Shown here one piece after another: positions 17,103-63,648 of a stretch of DNA of 64,000 nt. The stretch is from the NCBI GenBank assembly GCA_035710745.1, contig DASTCX010000003.1, positions 124,001 to 188,000 on the forward strand, read 5' to 3'. The translations under genes and the position numbers were made by a program. The notes beneath the pieces were generated by a model. That model saw only the letters and a program-made list of their open reading frames with translations, was not told the DNA's origin and did no database searches. The stretch comes from Candidatus Eremiobacteraceae bacterium. Lineage in GTDB: Bacteria; Vulcanimicrobiota; Vulcanimicrobiia; Eremiobacterales; Eremiobacteraceae. Position 1 is the stretch's first letter. Every line of letters starts with the position of its first letter.

Positions 17103-20100
17103 TCAGAGCTTGACCTCGACGTCGAAGTAGAGGTTCGCCGGCGACGGCTGCGCTTGTTGCTCGATGCCGTACGGGAATTGGACGACCCGTTGGATCGTGT
17201 CGCCGGGGTTGAAGATGTTGCCGACCGGCGGTATGTGACCGGGCAGGACGTCGTATCCGCACAAGTGGTTGTTCGTCACCGTCCACGGCTCGCTGTCGCC
17301 GCCGAAGCACCTGAGTATCGCATTGACGGCGGTGAGACGCAGCGTCGTCTGCGGCGTCGCCCGGTACGAGACTTGGAAGTTGACGGTCAGCTGCGACGGT
17401 TGGCGGAACGCGCCCGGCGTGTCGAAGTTGCCTGTCACCTGATCGGGAATGAAGATCGTGTTCGTGCACGTCGTCGCATCGTACGGTTGGCCGCTGCCGC
17501 CGAACGGGTAGCGCTTGTCGCCGGTCACCGATCCGCTCGGGAGCGGCTGGCAGGTCGCTGGGTCGACGCCGATCTGCTGCTCGGGTCCGCCGTAGCGCGG
17601 TCCGGCGAGCAGTTCGACGAGCGGGGTGAACGACCACTTGTCGTGGCGATACGTGGCGGCGAACGACGTATAGTCCGGAACGCCGTAACTCGCGACGGTC
17701 AGCTGGAGGCCGGTCGGGATCACGTCGAACGTCGGATACGACCCGAACGGATCGAGCAGCGGTCGGACCGGTGCGTTGAAGTACGGGTTCGCGACGCCGT
17801 TCGACTCGGTCGGCATCGCGTTCGCGCCGCCGAAGACGCCGCAGAGGCTGCCCGGATCCGTCGACGGATTCTTGCCGGCGCACGCCGAGGTGTACGAGTT
17901 GTATTGCTGGATCGCGGCGTTGACGCCCGAGAGCAGCGTCGAGCCGTTCGGCAGCGCGACGTACTCGATGCGGCTATGCGTGTACGTGTACGCGAGCTGC
18001 CACGACAAACCGTTGGCGTCCGGGGAGCCCTTCGTCAGCATGAACTCCGCGCCGAAGCTCGTCTGCCGGCCGGCGTTGATGTCGGTCGTCGTGCCGAACG
18101 TCGGATCGATGAAGAACGACTGGACCTGGTCGCGCGTGCGCCGGTAGAACGGCGTCAGCTTGAACGCGACGTCGCTGCCGTTGAAGCGATGTTCCCACGA
18201 GAAGTCGGCGTTGTACGATACCGGCGGACGCAGGTCGCGCACCGGCGTCGTCTGACCGAGGGCGAAGAAGTGCGGACCGATGAAGTCCGGCAAGTCTTGT
18301 TGAAGCGCGTCGTTCTCGATCGCGCGCGTCGCCGGCGCCTGTGCGTAGACGCCCCACGACGCGCGGAACACGTCGTCGTCGCCGGCGTCGAACGTCGCAC
18401 CGAGGCGCGGCTGGAAAACGCTGTGGCTCGTCGATGCGCCGGCGGCGGATGCGTTCGTCAGATGCGCCTGCACCCAACCTGGCCCGAGTATGCCGTCGAG
18501 CGTGCTGCACGGCGTTCCCACGGGCAAGCCGAGGAGCGTCTCGTCGATGGGGTTTCCGCCGTTGAAGCCCTTGTTCGCGCACATGACCGCGTTCCATGAA
18601 TTGAACCAGAACGCGCGCGCTGCACCGCCGGCCGTCGACGGGATGTCGAACGCGAAGTGATCGAAGCGGATACCGGCATTGATGTTGAGGCGGTCGGTCG
18701 GCCTATATTGATCTTCGATCGAGAACGACGTGAAGCGCGGCGTCACGGAATTGCTCGGGCCGTTCGCGCCGTTCTCGACCGCGAGCCACTCGAAGCCCGG
18801 AGGCGGCGGCGCGAATGGTAGGCCGTACGATAGGAAGCATGCGCCGCCACCCGTGAACCCGTTGCACAGCGGGATGCCGCCGTTGAGGACGAAGGCGGTG
18901 GTCGGTTCGCACGAGACCGGTTGGAGCGCCGAGTTATAACAGACGCCGCTTGTCGGCGCGCTCTGGCTGACGAGCGGGGCGAAGTATGACTGCGGGCTCA
19001 GCGGGTTCGCATTCGCCATCTGGCCGTTGTTGAAGAAGACGTTGTTCGACGACGAGTACGAGACTTGCACGTCGAACAGGTGGTACGCGTTCATCTGGTC
19101 GACGTAATTCGCCGAGTAGCCGTGCGTGTGCGTCCACAGCTCGAAGTCGGGCGACGTCGAGATGAAGAACTGGTCGTTGCCGTTCGGGCTATGGATGAAC
19201 TCATTCGAGTAGTAGTCGTAGCCGTACACGCGCGCGTACGCGTTGGTGCCGAACGTGTGCTTGTACTCGACCTTGACGATGCTCTGTCCGTTTTCGGTCA
19301 CGTCACGTTGGTTCGCGGGCACGAAGCCGTCGATGCCTGCCTGATCCTCGCTCGGGAAAAGATACGGCACGACGCTGTCGATCGCGCCGCCGGGTGTTCC
19401 CGATACGCTGCCGAGCAGCGGACCGTCGTATTGGAAGCCGCTTGCGAAGAGCGGGTAGCCGGCGCCGGGGATGAGCGAGTGGAATCCGCCCGCCGCGCCG
19501 TCGATGCCGTTCCAGAACGGTGCGCCGCCCCAATCACTGTACGACGAGTACGTGTACGTGGTGATTTGCGACGTGTCGTAAAGCAACTGGATGTCGTCGT
19601 GATCGCTGCTGTTGCGCCGCGGCACGAGGAAGTGGAAGTTGGCGATGTTCTCGCGGTCGCCGAGCGAGGCGTTCTTGCCCATGTTGTACGGGCCGAGGAC
19701 GTAGCCGCCGGGACCGGCCGGAAAGGCTTGGAAGAACGCGTGATTCGCGTAGCAACCCGCGAAATTCGACGGGTTCGACGACGTGAAGCAATTGGGGCCG
19801 CCGCCGATGTCGAACGGCATGCCGAACTCGTTTGAGATCGCTGCGCCGTTGTTCTGATCGAAGTATCGGAACGACTGATTGTAGCCGCCGAACGCCGCGT
19901 AGTAGGAGAAGCGTTTATCGGGCGTCGCGCCGCCGGCTTCGAGGTTTAGCTTATTGAAGTAGGCGGGGGCGCCGATGCCGGCGTCGAGACCCGCGAATCC
20001 AGGATACGTCCCTTGTTTGACGACCTGATTGATGTAGCCCGAAAGTCCTTGCGATTCCGCGTTCGCCGGCGCGCCGCCGGTATAGACGTCGAGCGCTGCG

Positions 20101-20774
20101 ACTCCCATGTCTGAGAGATTCATCGTCGGGATGTGATCGAATGCGCGATTGATCGGCACGCCGTCGAACTCGTATCCGATCTCTGTGAAGTCGCCGCCGC
20201 GTACGAACACGGGTTGGTTCCAGCCGCTCTGACCGCTCGGCACGAACGTTCCGGGCAGCGACGCGATCGCCGAATATGCGCTCTCGAGATCGCCGCCACC
20301 GCCGAGCGAATTGAAGACCGGTTGGTCGCTTCCACGGATGTTGTAAACGTCTTGAACGGTGCTCGGCCTCAGAAGGCTCGGCCTCGCGGTGACGATCACC
20401 GGGGTCAAGAGCTTGGGCAGCTTCGGTGTGACGAGCCGTACTGTGACCGCGTTGTCCGCGACGACGGTTACGCCCGGCTGCATGATGGACTGGTAGCCAT
20501 CCTTTGAGGCGGTGATTGCATACGTATCAGGCGGCAGATCGACGAAAGCGAAAGCGCCCTGGGCATCTGTGGTCGTCGACTCCGACGTCGTCGGCGATGC
20601 CACGGTCACTTTGGCGCCGCTCAGGGGTGTATCTGTGCCGGTCAGCACGTAGCCGGATATCGTGCCGGTCGTGCCCGCGAGAGCGGGTTGCGCTAGCGCG
20701 AAAGCCGCGATCGTGACGATCGCGACGGCGATGGAAGCGCTGATGCTCCGGTAGATCGATGGGGAAGACGGCAT
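17103..20774 (-). CDS. TonB-dependent receptor with N-terminal carboxypeptidase-regulatory-like domain
   Basis: A 1223-residue outer-membrane receptor. A signal peptide (ending ALAQPALA) is followed by a CarboxypepD_reg-like beta domain (about 35-120: GTISGYVLTGTDTPLSG, then DAQGAFAFVDLPPDTYAIT). A plug domain follows at about 130-280 (QPVFVRGGDFTEIGYEFDGV), then a long aromatic-rich barrel ending in LYFDVEVKL. No TonB box is obvious. Substrate is unknown. It is the first gene of the minus-strand unit with the RND pump (4-base gap) and the MFS-PlsC protein, so a shared job in moving lipid or another hydrophobic molecule across the envelope is plausible. Confidence 0.9.
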   Translation of the reverse strand: MPSSPSIYRSISASIAVAIVTIAAFALAQPALAGTTGTISGYVLTGTDTPLSGAKVTVASPTTSESTTTDAQGAFAFVDLPPDTYAITASKDGYQSIMQPGVTVVADNAVTVRLVTPKLPKLLTPVIVTARPSLLRPSTVQDVYNIRGSDQPVFNSLGGGGDLESAYSAIASLPGTFVPSGQSGWNQPVFVRGGDFTEIGYEFDGVPINRAFDHIPTMNLSDMGVAALDVYTGGAPANAESQGLSGYINQVVKQGTYPGFAGLDAGIGAPAYFNKLNLEAGGATPDKRFSYYAAFGGYNQSFRYFDQNNGAAISNEFGMPFDIGGGPNCFTSSNPSNFAGCYANHAFFQAFPAGPGGYVLGPYNMGKNASLGDRENIANFHFLVPRRNSSDHDDIQLLYDTSQITTYTYSSYSDWGGAPFWNGIDGAAGGFHSLIPGAGYPLFASGFQYDGPLLGSVSGTPGGAIDSVVPYLFPSEDQAGIDGFVPANQRDVTENGQSIVKVEYKHTFGTNAYARVYGYDYYSNEFIHSPNGNDQFFISTSPDFELWTHTHGYSANYVDQMNAYHLFDVQVSYSSSNNVFFNNGQMANANPLSPQSYFAPLVSQSAPTSGVCYNSALQPVSCEPTTAFVLNGGIPLCNGFTGGGACFLSYGLPFAPPPPGFEWLAVENGANGPSNSVTPRFTSFSIEDQYRPTDRLNINAGIRFDHFAFDIPSTAGGAARAFWFNSWNAVMCANKGFNGGNPIDETLLGLPVGTPCSTLDGILGPGWVQAHLTNASAAGASTSHSVFQPRLGATFDAGDDDVFRASWGVYAQAPATRAIENDALQQDLPDFIGPHFFALGQTTPVRDLRPPVSYNADFSWEHRFNGSDVAFKLTPFYRRTRDQVQSFFIDPTFGTTTDINAGRQTSFGAEFMLTKGSPDANGLSWQLAYTYTHSRIEYVALPNGSTLLSGVNAAIQQYNSYTSACAGKNPSTDPGSLCGVFGGANAMPTESNGVANPYFNAPVRPLLDPFGSYPTFDVIPTGLQLTVASYGVPDYTSFAATYRHDKWSFTPLVELLAGPRYGGPEQQIGVDPATCQPLPSGSVTGDKRYPFGGSGQPYDATTCTNTIFIPDQVTGNFDTPGAFRQPSQLTVNFQVSYRATPQTTLRLTAVNAILRCFGGDSEPWTVTNNHLCGYDVLPGHIPPVGNIFNPGDTIQRVVQFPYGIEQQAQPSPANLYFDVEVKL

Positions 20775-58480: not shown

Positions 58481-59496
58481 CGATCGACGTCGCGTCGTTC
58501 GCGGCGCGCATTCCAAAGGCTGAACTCCACGTCCACCTCGAAGGCACGATCTCGCCGGACGCGTACGTCCGCATCGCGCACCGCAACGGACTTGACCCTA
58601 AGGATGCCGATGCGATCTTCGCATGCCACGATTTTCCGTCGTTTTTGCGCGCCTTTCTCGACGTCGTCAAAGCGCTTCGACGGCCGGAAGATTTCGCCGA
58701 GCTAGCGACGGAGTATCTGACGCGTTCAGCGGCGGACAACGTCCGTCACGTCGAGTTCTTCATCTCGCCGGCGACGCAACGCAAATTCGCGCCCGAACTC
58801 GATGCCAATGCGATGATCGTGGCGGTCTGGTGTGCGTGCGAACGCGCGCGCAGGGAACGCGGCGTGACGTCTAGGCTCATCATCGATATGGTCCGCAACC
58901 TAGGTGAAGAAGAAGCGCTGCTCGACGTCGATCTCGCCGTGGCATCAGCGGACAAGGGAGTCGTCGGCATCGGACTCGGCGGCGACGAACGTCGCTTTCC
59001 GGCGCGCGATTTCCAACGCGCCTACGCAAAAGCGCGCGAGCGAGGTCTGCGCCGCACGGCGCATGCGGGAGAAGCTGCAGGCGCGGAGAGCATCGTCGAT
59101 GCGGTCGAACTGCTCGGCGCCGAACGGATCGGTCATGGGGTTGCTGCAAAAGGCAAGCCCGAGGTCCTCGCACTGCTGCGCGGTCGCGGCGTCACGATCG
59201 ACGCATGTCCGACGAGCAATCGATTCACAGCCGCCCTCGCGAAAAGCGAGGTGCATCCGCTCCGCGAGTTCCTCAATGCCGGCGTCAGCGTGACACTGAG
59301 CAGCGACGACCCGTCATTCTTCAGGACGAGCGTCACCGCGGAATACGAGCACGCCGCAGCGCTCGGCTGCGGCGTGGAGGAGATAACTGCGATCGCCAAA
59401 GCGAGTTTCGAGCGATCGTTTCTGCCTGCGAGCGACAGGCAGCGTCTAGTCGAGGAGGTCGACGCCTATGTCGACGGGCTCGGGATCACGCGATAA
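58477..59496 (+). CDS. add: Adenosine deaminase-family enzyme
   Basis: A 339-residue metal-dependent amidohydrolase. Zinc and catalytic residues are in order: HVHLEGTI near 18, HAGEAAG near 195, IGHGVAA near 217 and SSDDPSFF near 273. It would deaminate adenosine, or adenine in some close relatives. It starts at a GTG that overlaps the DUF1028 stop. The 3' end overlaps the convergent lipoprotein gene by 31 bases. Confidence 0.92.
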   Translation: MTIDVASFAARIPKAELHVHLEGTISPDAYVRIAHRNGLDPKDADAIFACHDFPSFLRAFLDVVKALRRPEDFAELATEYLTRSAADNVRHVEFFISPATQRKFAPELDANAMIVAVWCACERARRERGVTSRLIIDMVRNLGEEEALLDVDLAVASADKGVVGIGLGGDERRFPARDFQRAYAKARERGLRRTAHAGEAAGAESIVDAVELLGAERIGHGVAAKGKPEVLALLRGRGVTIDACPTSNRFTAALAKSEVHPLREFLNAGVSVTLSSDDPSFFRTSVTAEYEHAAALGCGVEEITAIAKASFERSFLPASDRQRLVEEVDAYVDGLGITR

Positions 59497-59831
59497 CCCG
59501 AGACCTTGCCGCTCGCATCAAGCTTCATCTTGACGATGAGCGTGCCGTTCGAGAAATCGGCTTCGAAGTCGTAGGCGCCGTCCGGCTCGGTGCCGGTCTG
59601 CTTGAGGCCTTTATAGTCTCCGTGCTGGTGCATGAGGTCCGAGAGCGCGCCCAACTCTGCGCGCGTCACCGTCTTGGCGAGGTCCGGGGTGAAGTTCTTC
59701 GTCGCCGAGTCGATGTCGTCGTTGTACACTGCTCTCGTCACGTCGTCGGCCGTCCTCGACTCGCCCGAGCCGCAGCCCGCGAGAGCGAGGACGGCGCAAC
59801 CGCAAACGATGATCGCCCTGATCGTCGTCAT
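59466..59831 (-). CDS. Small lipoprotein
   Basis: A 121-residue protein with a lipobox signal (VLALAGC, Cys near 20). The mature part has a DUF3887-like flavour (DDIDSATKNFTPDLAKT, then a DFSNGTLIVKMKLDASGKV strand pair). It begins 4 bases after the coiled-coil gene stop, so the two form an operon. Confidence 0.72.
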   Translation of the reverse strand: MTTIRAIIVCGCAVLALAGCGSGESRTADDVTRAVYNDDIDSATKNFTPDLAKTVTRAELGALSDLMHQHGDYKGLKQTGTEPDGAYDFEADFSNGTLIVKMKLDASGKVSGYRVIPSPST

Positions 59832-59835
59832 CTGT

Positions 59836-60309
59836 CTAGATCGTCCCCCAGCCGTAGCTGGTCACCGCGACCTGCTGCTCGCCGCCGACCGGAGTCGGAT
59901 GGACGAGCGTCGTCTGTGCGACGAAGTTCGTCGGCTGTCCGGACGAGCCGTGCGGCTGCAAGACCGCGACCTGGCGGCGAAGTTGATCGACTTGATCGTG
60001 CTGGTATGCGACCTCGCGCTTCAGATCGGAAACGAGCGCCGCTTCGTTCGCGTACGCCTTCTTCTCGGAGTTATAGGCGGCAGTCGCATCGTCACGCTGC
60101 GCCGCGAGCGAGGCCTCGTTGGCCGCGTCCTGCGCGTATTTCGCATGCACCTGCTTGTTGTGGTTGATGATGATCAACGCTGCAGCAGCACCCCCGAGGA
60201 TGATGTTGCGCGTGCTCGCCGCACCGTCAGCCGACACCGGCCCTTGCGGGGCAAGCGCCAGAAGCATAGCGGCGATAATGGAAACACCGATGATCCGCGA
60301 TAGTTTCAT
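59836..60309 (-). CDS. Exported coiled-coil protein
   Basis: A 157-residue protein with a signal peptide (MKLSRIIGVSIIAAMLLALA) and a helical, coiled-coil middle (EASLAAQRDDATAAYNSEKK, LKREVAYQHDQVDQLRRQV). The C-terminus is unstructured. ATG 60309 follows GGAGGTG by 9 bases; a longer frame to 60492 has no support. Function unknown. Confidence 0.7.
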   Translation of the reverse strand: MKLSRIIGVSIIAAMLLALAPQGPVSADGAASTRNIILGGAAAALIIINHNKQVHAKYAQDAANEASLAAQRDDATAAYNSEKKAYANEAALVSDLKREVAYQHDQVDQLRRQVAVLQPHGSSGQPTNFVAQTTLVHPTPVGGEQQVAVTSYGWGTI

Positions 60310-60464
60310 GTAAGTGGACACCTCCGCACCCTGAGCAACGTATTTGGTATACCCAATTGTCGCGAGCGCTCCCTCGCCCTGTCCCGAAATACGCGTCACA
60401 ACCAAGGATGCCAATTTGTACCTGAGACACCGGGAACCAAAAATATTCGAGCGCACGTTCAGGA

Positions 60465-60493
60465 TTGTAGTCCTTTCTTCTTGGTGGTACACT
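60465..60493 (+). promoter_or_regulatory. Promoter of the zinc-finger miniprotein
   Basis: TTGTAG (60465-60470), a 17-base spacer and TACACT (60488-60493), with GGTGGGG ribosome site following at about 60501. This spacing and fit support expression of the small gene at 60519. Confidence 0.5.
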
Positions 60494-60701: not shown

Positions 60702-60885
60702 TGCGGCCGTCTTTAATGTTAACGTCTCTTCCCCGCCTTCGGTTTTGGCTCGGACAGGGTCTCTAAGAAAGCTTGAATCGCGTCATTACGCGGTAAGGTG
60801 TTCTTGATTTTCTCTCGCTTCTCGGACGGGTCGCTCGTTGTTTTTTGTCAACAATTCCGGCAAGGATAAGCGAGCCTAATTCGGA

Positions 60886-60903
60886 AGTTAGGCAACCCTA
60901 ACT
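60886..60903. promoter_or_regulatory. DtxR-type operator palindrome
   Basis: AGTTAGGCAACCCTAACT: perfect 7-base arms around CAAC, 21 bases before the ATG of the DtxR gene. It contains the TTAGG...CCTAA core of DtxR/IdeR boxes. Autoregulation of the regulator-oxidase operon by iron (or manganese) is implied. Confidence 0.75.
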
Positions 60904-60924
60904 CGCGCTTATAGGTTTGCCACA

Positions 60925-61638
60925 ATGACTACGTCCGCCTTGAAATCGGCGCCCGCCGTCGCCCCCGACGAGCACGAAGTAAGCCCGAACGTCGAGATGT
61001 ATCTCAAATCGATCGTCCGGCTGTTTGACGGCGCCGAACCCGTGCCGACATCGGCGATCGCCCACGAGCTCGCGGTCTCGCCCGCCTCGGCATCGTCGAT
61101 GCTCAAGCGCCTCGACTCGGACGGTTACGTCCGGCACGACGGCCGGCACGGCGTCATCCCGACGCATGCCGGCGCGCGGATCGGCGCGCTCACGCTCCGT
61201 CGCCAACGGCTTGCGGAGCGGCTTCTCGTCGATTGTCTCGGCGTGTCGTGGGAGGCTGCGAGCGCGGAAGCGTGCCGGCTCGAGCACGCGATCTCGCCGC
61301 TCGTCGAGCGCCATCTAGCAGCGTTCATGGGGAACCCGACGACGTGTCCGCACGGTCATCCGATCCCGCGCGACGACGGATCGTTGTGGCAGCACGAGGA
61401 CGCGATCGACCTCGCCGACGTCGCGCTCGGCATTCCCGCGGTTGTGCTCGAGGTGAAGAACGAGATCCCCGAACTGCTGCGCTTTCTCGACGAGATCGGC
61501 GTCAAGCCGGGTGTCAGCGTGTCGGTCGTATCGCGCGAGCGCGCCGTCGGACTTCAGAAGATCGAAGTCGGCGGTAAGCAGCACGCCGTTAGCGTCCAAC
61601 TGGCCGCCGCCGTCGTCGTGAGAAACCCGCAAGCGTGA
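60925..61638 (+). CDS. DtxR/IdeR-family metal-dependent repressor
   Basis: A 237-residue regulator: an N-terminal winged helix (SAIAHELAVSPASASSMLKR), a dimerisation domain with metal ligands in EACRLEHAISPLVERHL, and a C-terminal SH3-like (FeoA-type) domain near 170-235. The Cys in EACRLEH matches the iron-type DtxR/IdeR site rather than the Glu of MntR, so iron is the more likely co-repressor. NPTTCPHGHPIP is the family block before the SH3 domain. The stop overlaps the GTG of the oxidase-transporter gene, giving a two-gene operon behind the palindromic operator. Confidence 0.93.
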   Translation: MTTSALKSAPAVAPDEHEVSPNVEMYLKSIVRLFDGAEPVPTSAIAHELAVSPASASSMLKRLDSDGYVRHDGRHGVIPTHAGARIGALTLRRQRLAERLLVDCLGVSWEAASAEACRLEHAISPLVERHLAAFMGNPTTCPHGHPIPRDDGSLWQHEDAIDLADVALGIPAVVLEVKNEIPELLRFLDEIGVKPGVSVSVVSRERAVGLQKIEVGGKQHAVSVQLAAAVVVRNPQA

Positions 61639-63500
61639 TCTCGAAGATCTTACCGCGCGGCGGTGTCATCACTGCGGCCGCGCTCGTCATCGCGATCACC
61701 ACCCTGTTCGTGACGCCGGCCCGTGCTCAGAACGATCTCTCGCCGACGGACGCGCAGATAGCGCAAGCCGAATCAGCGGCTCAGCGCGACTTCGATCTGC
61801 TTCCCGCCTTGCCGCCCGTAGCGACCGGTCATCTCAAGACGATCAGACTGATCGCGGAAGTGAAACCTTGGACGGTTGCGCCGGGGATCAGTGTCGACGC
61901 GTGGACGTACAACGGAACTGTGCCCGGACCGACGATCCACGTGCGCCAGGGCGATCGCGTCCGCGTTCTTTTCACGAATCATCTGCCCGAGCCGACGACC
62001 ATCCACTGGCACGGGCTCGACGTTCCCGCGGACATGGACGGCGTTCCCGGCATGAGCCAACCGGCCGTCCAGCCGGGTCAGACGTTCGTCTACGAATTCA
62101 CCGCGACCGATCCGGGCACGTACATCTATCACACGCACTACGACGATCTGTTCCAGCTCGATAGCGGGCTCTACGGCGCGTTCGTCGTCGACCCGGCGAA
62201 GCCGGCGAAGGATCGCTACGATCGCGACTACCTCATGCTCGTGTCGTCGTGGCGCATACACAGCACGGCGGAGAACTACTTCAGCATCGACGGCAAGAGC
62301 TATCCGCTGACGAAGCCGTTCATGGTGCGAAAAGGCGATCGCGTTCGCCTGCGGACGATCGACATCAGCGGAACCGAATTCCACACGATGCACTTGCACG
62401 GGCATCGCTTTCAGATCGTCGCGATAGACGGCCAGGACGTCGCGCCCGCGCAACGCCAGAACATGGTGACCGTCAATATCGGCCCGGGCGAAACCCGCGA
62501 CCTCGCGTTCACCGCGAACGCTCAGCCTGGCACATGGATGGTGCACTGCCACGTCGCCGACCACATGATGAACGGCGGCGTCGGCCCCGGCGGACTTATC
62601 ACGACGATCCAGTACGAAGGCGTACCATCGACGATGGGCTCGATGGCGATGGCGGACAAGATGCGCCCGATGCCCGCCGACGGCGGTGAAGGCGGAGGTG
62701 CGATCGGACCGCCGCTCGACGCGACGACGACGATCATCCTCGGGGCGATCGCCGGGCTGACGATTTTCTTCGGACTGCCGTTCGCCGCGATGAAGAACTT
62801 GCCGACTCGTGGCATCGCGTTTCTCAACGCGACCGCGATCGGCGTGCTGTTCTTCCTGCTCTACGACATATTGAAGCAGGCCGGCGAGCCGATCACGACG
62901 GCCCTCGCCGCGACGCAGGTCGGCGTGAGCGCCGCACCGTTCGTGACCCTTGTCGCGACGTATCTCACCGGCCTGACGATCGGCCTCGTCGGCCTCGTCA
63001 TCATCTCGCGCTTCGCGCTCAACCGCTATAAGAGCGGCGGCGAGATCTCGCCGATGGGGCTCGCGATGACGATCGCGCTCGGCATCGGGTCGCACAATTT
63101 TAGCGAAGGGCTCGCGATCGGCCAATCAGCTGCGACCGGGGCGGTGCAACTTGCGGTCGTCTTGATCATTGGTTTCGGTTTGCACAACATGACCGAGGGC
63201 TTCGGAATCGCGGCGCCGCTCGCGGGCCGGGCACCGACGGGTTTTTGGCAGATCTTGCGCCTCGGTCTCATCGGCGGCGCACCGACGTTCCTGGGCACCG
63301 TCGTCGGCTATCGATTCACGTCGCCGATCCTGTCGGTCGCGTTCCTGACGCTGGCCGCCGGCGCGATCATGTGGGTCATCGGCGAGATGACGAGCGCCGG
63401 GCGGCGCATCGGCCACAAGGAACTCGCCGCGTTCGGCGTGCTCGCCGGCTTCATCCTCGGCTTCGGCACGGATCTCGTGCTCGCCAGCGCCGGCGCCTAG
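61635..63500 (+). CDS. Multicopper oxidase fused to a ZIP metal transporter
   Basis: A 621-residue fusion. After a signal/anchor segment (residues 8-30), residues about 60-330 form a two-domain multicopper oxidase with all copper motifs: TIHWHGLD (122-129), YHTHYDD (near 165), TMHLHGHRF (near 250) and MVHCHVADHM (near 303-312). Residues about 361-621 form an eight-TM ZIP transporter with its two metal-site helices HNFSEGLAIG (near 486) and HNMTEGFGI (near 516). The oxidase would face the periplasm. It begins at a GTG that overlaps the DtxR stop, so it is presumably repressed by metal through that regulator. Oxidation of Fe(II) or Mn(II) coupled to import is the inferred role. Confidence 0.9.
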   Translation: MISKILPRGGVITAAALVIAITTLFVTPARAQNDLSPTDAQIAQAESAAQRDFDLLPALPPVATGHLKTIRLIAEVKPWTVAPGISVDAWTYNGTVPGPTIHVRQGDRVRVLFTNHLPEPTTIHWHGLDVPADMDGVPGMSQPAVQPGQTFVYEFTATDPGTYIYHTHYDDLFQLDSGLYGAFVVDPAKPAKDRYDRDYLMLVSSWRIHSTAENYFSIDGKSYPLTKPFMVRKGDRVRLRTIDISGTEFHTMHLHGHRFQIVAIDGQDVAPAQRQNMVTVNIGPGETRDLAFTANAQPGTWMVHCHVADHMMNGGVGPGGLITTIQYEGVPSTMGSMAMADKMRPMPADGGEGGGAIGPPLDATTTIILGAIAGLTIFFGLPFAAMKNLPTRGIAFLNATAIGVLFFLLYDILKQAGEPITTALAATQVGVSAAPFVTLVATYLTGLTIGLVGLVIISRFALNRYKSGGEISPMGLAMTIALGIGSHNFSEGLAIGQSAATGAVQLAVVLIIGFGLHNMTEGFGIAAPLAGRAPTGFWQILRLGLIGGAPTFLGTVVGYRFTSPILSVAFLTLAAGAIMWVIGEMTSAGRRIGHKELAAFGVLAGFILGFGTDLVLASAGA

Positions 63501-63520: not shown

Positions 63521-63648
63521 CGGTCGAGCTTTAGCTCGACCGGAGACGACTTTGCTATTGCTAGACCGCGGCGGTCGAGATAAATCTCGACCGCTCCCTT
63601 TTTTCTTCGCGAGGGGAGGCCGCGGCGCTCGAGATAAATCTCGACCGC
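63521..63648. repeat. Cluster of three hairpin repeats
   Basis: Elements at 63521-63542 (10-nt arms CGGTCGAGCT / AGCTCGACCG), 63571-63594 (11-nt perfect arms, followed by TCCCTTTTTT) and 63625-63648 (one arm mismatch), between convergent genes. A separate 14-nt palindrome AAGACCGCGGTCTT lies at 63503-63516. The second element looks like a terminator for the oxidase-ZIP gene. Confidence 0.85.

Follow-up and report, generated by a model that had tools for sequence, protein, structure and literature searches.

What would a bacterium do with a multicopper oxidase (MCO) and a ZIP metal permease made as one polypeptide, and is such a protein real? The question is raised by a gene in a 64,000-nucleotide stretch of DNA from a Candidatus Eremiobacteraceae bacterium, which as a whole is called the window here. 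A single open frame on the forward strand (61635..63500), beginning with a GTG start codon, encodes a protein of 621 residues with the order: signal peptide, two-domain MCO, Met-rich linker and eight-helix ZIP domain. The predicted signal peptide (residues 1-32; 61635..61730, forward strand) was recognized by eye as a hydrophobic stretch followed by ARA, and residues 9-23 adopt a helix in the structural model. A terminator-like hairpin (63570..63595, forward strand), with an 11-pair stem and then a T run, lies 70 bases past the stop codon; as six such sites were found against 2.7 in shuffles, it is only suggestive. The preliminary description of this DNA, made from the letters alone, had read the gene as an MCO directly followed by a ZIP permease in a single polypeptide, and this reading is borne out by the one frame.

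A whole-genome search of the phylum (149 genomes, threshold 1e-60, counts tallied by hand from the search listing) recovered a frame crossing the MCO-ZIP junction in 72 genomes, all of them from the window's class within Candidatus Eremiobacterota. These comprise 69 with a near-full-length one-frame fusion, among them G128 with an internal TAG, and three more with fragments that span the junction (G004, G050 and G124). Five further genomes have an MCO-only match (G014, G120, at a contig end, G132, G137 and G139), and 72 have no match to the fusion at this threshold. Between families the fused proteins diverge down to 43-50% identity with the fusion intact, which indicates that the architecture is old and has been kept. 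The occurrence of the same chain in many independently assembled genomes points to neither chance nor a mis-join; the worry that two neighboring genes were wrongly joined near the junction by assembly or annotation is refuted by these 72 crossings and by the conservation of the junction at such divergence, and an artifact has next to no probability.

The distribution of the fusion also bears on its history. A pattern scan of genome contigs retained 80 of 99 relatives, eight of them fused and the remainder MCOs without a ZIP. The MCO-only copies of G014 (L128) and G127 (L130) nest within the fused MCO clade in the tree, a position suggesting that these copies have lost the ZIP part. No fusion was seen outside the window's class: with the ZIP-half profile, no MCO-ZIP fused frame was found in 350 genomes of the Chloroflexota centre, 300 of the Thermoproteota centre, which holds the ammonia-oxidizing archaea (AOA), 296 of the Actinomycetota centre and 200 of the Gemmatimonadetes-labelled centre, and the long frames fetched from these four groups, a part of all long frames, proved either to be distinct genes that overlap or to have no MCO. 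One match titled 'Rhodospirillales' (L008, G156) was considered as an out-of-class fusion and rejected: it agrees with the same-class genome G112 in contig number, position and frame length, and hence the title is taken as a misnomer.

The MCO half is formed by two cupredoxin domains, the first at residues 78-188 (61866..62198, forward strand; Pfam Cu-oxidase_3, 3.4e-43) and the second at residues 213-314 (62271..62576, forward strand; Pfam Cu-oxidase_2, 1e-30). Ten histidines and one cysteine of the copper sites are in place: the trinuclear ligands H124, H126, H166 and H168 in domain 1; the trinuclear ligands H253, H255, H304 and H306 in domain 2; and the T1 ligands H250, C305 and H310, also in domain 2. 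All eight trinuclear-cluster histidines are thus present in the window's protein, and in alignment A2 they are invariant but for H304, which is Q in L136. At T1 copper sites the axial position, five residues after the last histidine, is usually Met or Leu. This position is variable among the fused members and is occupied by G in the window's protein; seven residues past H310 most rows of the other families have Met or Leu, and the window's family has Gly. The claim that every copper-ligand motif is present therefore stands for the ten histidines and the cysteine but not for the usual axial Met or Leu of the T1 site, which is missing.

The T1 motif, HCH (304-306), is found in domain 2, whereas domain 1 has HTH instead and no T1 cysteine. 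This makes the enzyme a type B two-domain MCO by the definition that confines the T1 Cys and His to the C-terminal domain, as given in the available part of PMC13151041, and the type B arrangement, with the T1 Cys in domain 2, is seen in 28 of the 28 fused rows of the MCO set. According to the same partial source, type B enzymes assemble as trimers, in which the trinuclear cluster lies at the subunit interface and the T1 site opens onto a central tunnel; the one under study there, a trimer, oxidizes Fe2+ and is also a laccase of broad specificity; and the potential is usually higher where a T1 site lacks the axial Met (PMC13151041). The closest solved folds to the MCO part are the two-domain MCOs 3g5w, 2zwn and 3gdc: in Foldseek/VIA comparisons 3gdc, 3g5w, 7rab and 2zwn were recovered at Z 30.4-30.7, with an rmsd of 2.1-2.5 over 264-268 aligned residues. 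Pfam and the predicted fold both uphold the earlier view of a full two-domain MCO. The type B enzymes CjMCO and SLAC share with it the copper-ligand layout, domain order and predicted fold; however, they are free trimers, whereas the window's enzyme is fused to a transporter and has no axial Met at the usual place.

The MCO is followed by a Met-rich linker (residues 333-362; 62631..62720, forward strand). Methionine makes up 12.6% of the linker residues across 28 members, against 2.8% in the MCO and 2.0% in the ZIP part, and 20 of the 28 have at least three linker methionines. A full-chain AlphaFold2 model, built on 28 fused relatives (mean pLDDT 80.1), has two cupredoxin domains and then eight long helices; the linker, whose structure prediction the preliminary description had advised, is of low model confidence and poorly ordered, with pLDDT under 50 at residues 340-358.

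The ZIP domain (residues 363-618; 62721..63488, forward strand) has eight transmembrane helices and displays HNxxEG motifs at 487-492 and 517-522, in TM4 and TM5, with the H, N and E invariant across 28 rows. Pfam detects Zip at residues 477-577 (3.2e-6, 27.0 bits, below the gathering cut-off of 35.1), and NCBIfam ZupT is matched over residues 364-607 (8.8e-10), again below the cut-off. The domain search proposed earlier has thus recovered both cupredoxin families, and Zip below the Pfam cut-off. BbZIP (5tsa) was matched at 3.8e-7, and Zip is detected in 28 of the 28 scanned fused members with E at most 0.001. Since the full-chain VIA rows cover the MCO part only, the ZIP half was folded separately (pLDDT 87.4): BbZIP chains were recovered at VIA Z 15.6-20.8, with an rmsd of 3.3-4.2 over 219-243 aligned residues, and the next, unrelated chain at Z 8.6. 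Given the BbZIP fold and the metal sites, we call this a ZIP-fold domain that is divergent by its Pfam score, a curation threshold. It agrees with the prior expectation of a complete ZIP permease with both metal-site helices, and the 5tsa match and the fold set it in a permease family other than that of Ftr1. BbZIP and ZupT share the eight-helix fold and two HNxxEG-like site helices, but unlike the window's ZIP carry no oxidase. No other Zip was found in the source genome.

The distribution of lysine and arginine follows the positive-inside pattern, with means of 2.3, 1.4, 0.6 and 1.4 in loops 1, 3, 5 and 7, and of 0.4, 0, 0.2 and 0.04 in loops 2, 4, 6 and the C-terminus. These values give a predicted N-out, C-out topology for the ZIP domain, which would allow an exported MCO to rest immediately against the importer's outer face. 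Elsewhere in the window, a 1223-residue outer-membrane protein of the TonB-dependent-receptor type (17103-20774, reverse strand) points to a two-membrane cell.

Which metal might be involved is suggested by the control region. A predicted operator of the DtxR/IdeR type, the iron box TTAGGCAACCCTAA with the pattern TTAGG-N4-CCTAA (60888..60901), lies just upstream of a -10-like TATAGG identified by eye (60910-60915); DtxR/IdeR operators are described as palindromes of CCTAA repeats (PMC10317159, available in part). A second, imperfect box-like element TAAGCGAGCCTAA (60867..60879) is found eight bases before the main box, and its CCTAA core is aligned in the upstream regions of the family. The exact TTAGGN4CCTAA has one copy in the whole 2.97 Mb genome, upstream of the fusion operon, and in the window the box is the only match at one mismatch or fewer, with 0.12 expected. 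Exact boxes occur in nine of the 14 family genomes, in seven of those nine at the fusion operon. We surveyed the 500 bases upstream of the fusion in 42 distinct genomes (13 of the family and 29 others, the latter from 30 loci that included one genome twice) of the 72 with the fusion; these loci are related and not independent draws, and the best match is exact at 25, with one mismatch at 16 and with two at one, i.e. 41 of 42 at one mismatch or fewer. By comparison, among 664 random windows from the same loci none had a match at that level and 21 had one with two mismatches, and two control patterns never came within one mismatch.

Downstream of the box, a gene for a DtxR/IdeR-family regulator of 237 residues (60925..61638, forward strand; Pfam), with a primary site of the M/C/E/H iron type and a FeoA-like C-terminal domain, shares four bases (GTGA) between its TGA and the GTG of the fusion. 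All 13 loci of the window's family have it directly before the fusion, nine with the same overlap as in the window and the other four with a fusion start 5-9 bases past the stop. In G104, of another family, it lies directly downstream. The motifs EMYLK and EACR(L/I)EH, i.e. a Met10/Cys102/Glu105/His106-type site, are shared by all 14 genomes that have the gene next to the fusion (13 of the family and G104), and Met/Cys/Glu/His ligands of the primary site are the rule for iron-type DtxR proteins in the accessible parts of PMC4805248 and PMC10317159. With the exception of G104, no adjacent DtxR gene was found at any of 17 loci examined outside the family (1.5-5 kb flanks); the conservation of the box thus extends to loci that lack such a neighbor. 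No FeoB over the cut-off was found in any of the 14 genomes of the window's family; Nramp importers over the cut-off are present in all 14, and hence iron need not enter via the fusion.

The surroundings offer several further observations. Only two exact boxes of the family lie away from the fusion (L258:1501-2651 in G009 and L263:1501-2635 in G004), and both directly precede homologous genes (41%) for a protein that by eye is predicted to be secreted. The protein has no Pfam match; its G009 copy carries one CxxCH heme motif and is followed by a YceI-like gene. Homologues occur in all 14 family genomes, and the protein may belong to the iron regulon as its second member. Two small genes (59466-60492, reverse strand) are transcribed divergently from the DtxR gene and code for a 121-residue DUF3887-like protein and one of 218 residues; at several related loci, homologues of one or of both are found in the flanks. 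Beyond the window's family, no neighbor recurs as a shared partner of the fusion.

Matches to the ZIP-half profile elsewhere are of two kinds, short and long ZIPs. The short ones are mostly of 260-325 residues by frame, mostly with E between 1e-55 and 1e-92, and no MCO was seen beside them in the loci checked; among 20 Chloroflexota loci (L149-L168), nine have a divergent DtxR-type gene and one more has such a gene upstream on the same strand. The long ones are mostly of 390-480 residues, with E of about 1e-27 to 1e-45, and have a same-strand MCO gene directly upstream. This holds for all 23 archaeal loci (L176-L198), all 19 loci of the Gemmatimonadetes set (L219-L237) and 17 of another 18 (L238-L254 and L256), the exception being L248, which starts at a contig end. 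The bacterial pairs of the last group (L238-L247, L249-L254 and L256) belong to Chloroflexota, Actinomycetota and Gemmatimonadetes-labelled genomes. The paired MCOs have the T1 Cys in domain 1 (type C). Ten of those 17 loci have a DtxR-type gene within the fetched 6-7 kb, and the regulators beside unfused pairs are mostly of the manganese type, with Asp or Asn as first ligand in 11 of 11 rows and Glu as second in nine of 11. The MCO1-ZIP arrangement known from archaea is thus not confined to them.

In quick, unrooted trees without bootstrap and with long-branch warnings, the fused ZIP halves group with the short ZIPs, apart from the paired ones, and the fused MCO halves with unpaired MCOs, apart from the paired ones (99-100 SH-aLRT). 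The fused rows split in the quick ZIP tree, and constraining them together gives a higher likelihood (p-AU 0.81). The trees contain a random draw of pairs, 10 of the 22 complete ones from AOA and 10 of the 19 from the Gemmatimonadetes set; L148 and L147 were added, as were 21 hand-picked MCO-only loci of L010-L081, 20 of which passed the length filter. L112, which stands in a wrong frame in alignment A1 and is absent from A2, enters the trees in the right frame; L256, from the Gemmatimonadetes-labelled set, is marked Actino; L127 (family f3) is counted under f2; and L096 and L126 are one genome. As the unfused pairs differ from the fusion in both MCO type (C versus B) and ZIP clade, oxidase and ZIP were probably joined at least twice, two joinings being the simplest reading of the sequences. 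A single ancient pair that co-diverged and was often broken up is a possible alternative, with which the lack of a root in the trees is compatible.

How does the fusion compare with systems already described? In the available parts of the literature on AOA, a ZIP is immediately beside MCO1 in most members (PMC5767755), the combination MCO1+ZIP forms a table row (PMC5817080), a copper uptake model has been advanced for it (PMC7819960, PMC7785015), MCO1 and the neighboring permease of N. viennensis rise modestly under copper limitation (PMC7785015), and hydroxylamine oxidation is a hypothesis for archaeal MCO1 (PMC5767755, citing Kerou 2016). The likeness, as far as these sources extend, lies in a two-domain MCO by a ZIP permease, co-directional and touching, with a proposed role in metal uptake (PMC7785015, PMC7819960, PMC5817080, PMC5767755). 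However, the archaeal pair consists of two genes, with the T1 copper in domain 1 (type C) and a ZIP of another clade with ~390-400 residues, whereas the window's protein is one chain of type B with a short ZIP, an iron-type regulator and an iron box. Neither half falls in the clade of its archaeal counterpart (99-100 SH-aLRT), and the T1 site is in the other domain.

The yeast Fet3-Ftr1 system has an oxidase outside and a permease in the membrane and is made for iron starvation; it consists of a three-domain MCO and a permease of a different family, in two chains, and Ftr1 carries Fe(III). The likeness to it drawn by the preliminary description is supported by the outside oxidase with a membrane permease and, as regards an apparent tie to iron starvation, by the iron box, the iron-type DtxR and the lack of FeoB over the cut-off in the 14 family genomes; iron would presumably be the cargo of the ZIP. 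The unlike features are a ZIP in place of an Ftr1-family permease and one chain in place of two. Our search of the open-access literature, judged from the listings, yielded no paper on a fused MCO-ZIP or on an MCO in Eremiobacterota. The statement that no bacterial system of this form has been described thus holds for the fusion in the literature searched, but not for the partnership, which as the two-gene MCO1-ZIP is published for AOA and was found here in several bacterial phyla. As far as searched, what is new is the fused architecture, not the notion that an MCO and a ZIP cooperate.

We propose, with moderate confidence, that the protein is a one-piece, iron-starvation-induced oxidase-permease of the cytoplasmic membrane, and we rank iron uptake under starvation ahead of a selectivity filter, chelate oxidation and copper handling, in this order. 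The sequence, predicted fold and charge pattern support an exported two-domain oxidase outside the membrane, held by the Met-rich tether to the outward N-terminus of the ZIP. When iron is plentiful, DtxR would repress the operon via the iron box in the promoter, as the box and the iron-type ligands suggest; when iron is short, the oxidase-permease would be produced. At the importer's mouth the oxidase would then use O2 to oxidize its substrate, for which Fe(II) or a reduced iron-holding ligand is the most likely candidate, and the ZIP would import a divalent metal, most likely iron. By analogy with two-domain oxidases, which form the O2 site between neighboring subunits, the working form is expected to be a trimer or a multiple thereof. 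BbZIP is reported to be a dimer (PMC10256678), which makes the stoichiometry of the full chain a genuine puzzle. Several lines of evidence point this way: the recurrence of the single chain; the uniform type B MCO and the ZIP fold with both HNxxEG sites; the iron box at fused loci but not in random windows; the preceding DtxR gene with its iron-type ligands; the lack of FeoB over the cut-off and of a second Zip; the oxidation of Fe2+ by the trimeric type B enzyme of PMC13151041 (available in part); and the pairing of MCO and ZIP in a separate lineage too.

Other points count against iron uptake. The metal of the ZIP and the substrate of the MCO are not readable from sequence, the Met-rich linker is as suggestive of Cu(I) as of iron, Nramp importers are at hand in the family, the DtxR gene is mostly non-adjacent outside it, and DtxR proteins may also activate genes. 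A ferroxidase turns Fe(II) into Fe(III); to our knowledge ZIPs carry divalent ions and are not known to carry Fe(III), and hence channelling of this ill-suited product, as in Ftr1, would be unusual. In addition, the regulators beside unfused pairs look manganese-type, and the N. viennensis pair answers to copper limitation (PMC7785015, in excerpt).

The divalent-only chemistry of ZIPs would fit a role of the oxidase as a redox selectivity filter, which we consider unlikely but the strongest of the alternatives. It would make the competing or harmful ions Fe(II) and Cu(I) uncarriable, and a broad ZIP would take Mn(II) or Zn(II), for instance as a substitute at low iron. The predicted tethering of the oxidase at the importer's outer face and the manganese-type regulators of the unfused pairs are compatible with this; however, the regulator beside the fusion is of the iron and not the manganese type, and Nramp importers, a possible manganese route, are already present. 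More doubtful is the proposal that a laccase-like MCO destroys phenolic or siderophore-type ligands and thereby frees metal for the ZIP; against it, oxidizing catecholates tends to leave Fe(III). The broad-specificity laccase activity of the studied type B enzyme and the usually higher potential of T1 sites that, like those of the window's family, lack the axial Met would agree with it (PMC13151041, in part). Copper handling, along the lines proposed for the archaeal MCO1-permease pair, would have the oxidase turn Cu(I) into Cu(II) and the ZIP take up Cu(II) or a different ion. It is the least probable role of the four: the Met-rich linker and the modest response of the N. viennensis pair to copper limitation (PMC7785015, in excerpt) are in line with it, but the control region has an iron box and the archaeal MCO differs in both type and clade.

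Beyond iron uptake by the fusion itself, MCO and ZIP may represent a general solution, invented repeatedly among bacteria and archaea, by which O2-driven oxidation is coupled to metal import and the oxidase gates or feeds the importer; we advance this tentatively, as falling somewhat short of probable. One invention would then be the type C MCO gene with a long ZIP, with mostly manganese-type regulators, and another the single-chain type B MCO-short ZIP of Eremiobacteria with its iron box, the two being held together at the same tentative level. The presence of oxidase and importer in one chain is strong evidence that the two handle a common stream of ions; for the archaeal MCO1-ZIP pair, such joint action is only a guess. 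The metal-linked, apparently repeated association of MCO and ZIP in groups not known as ammonia oxidizers favors metal handling over hydroxylamine oxidation, and the single-chain form with its iron switch makes the metal-handling idea testable in one construct. Should iron be the ion imported, the fusion would be the equivalent in bacteria of the yeast ferroxidase-permease, with a permease from a different family.
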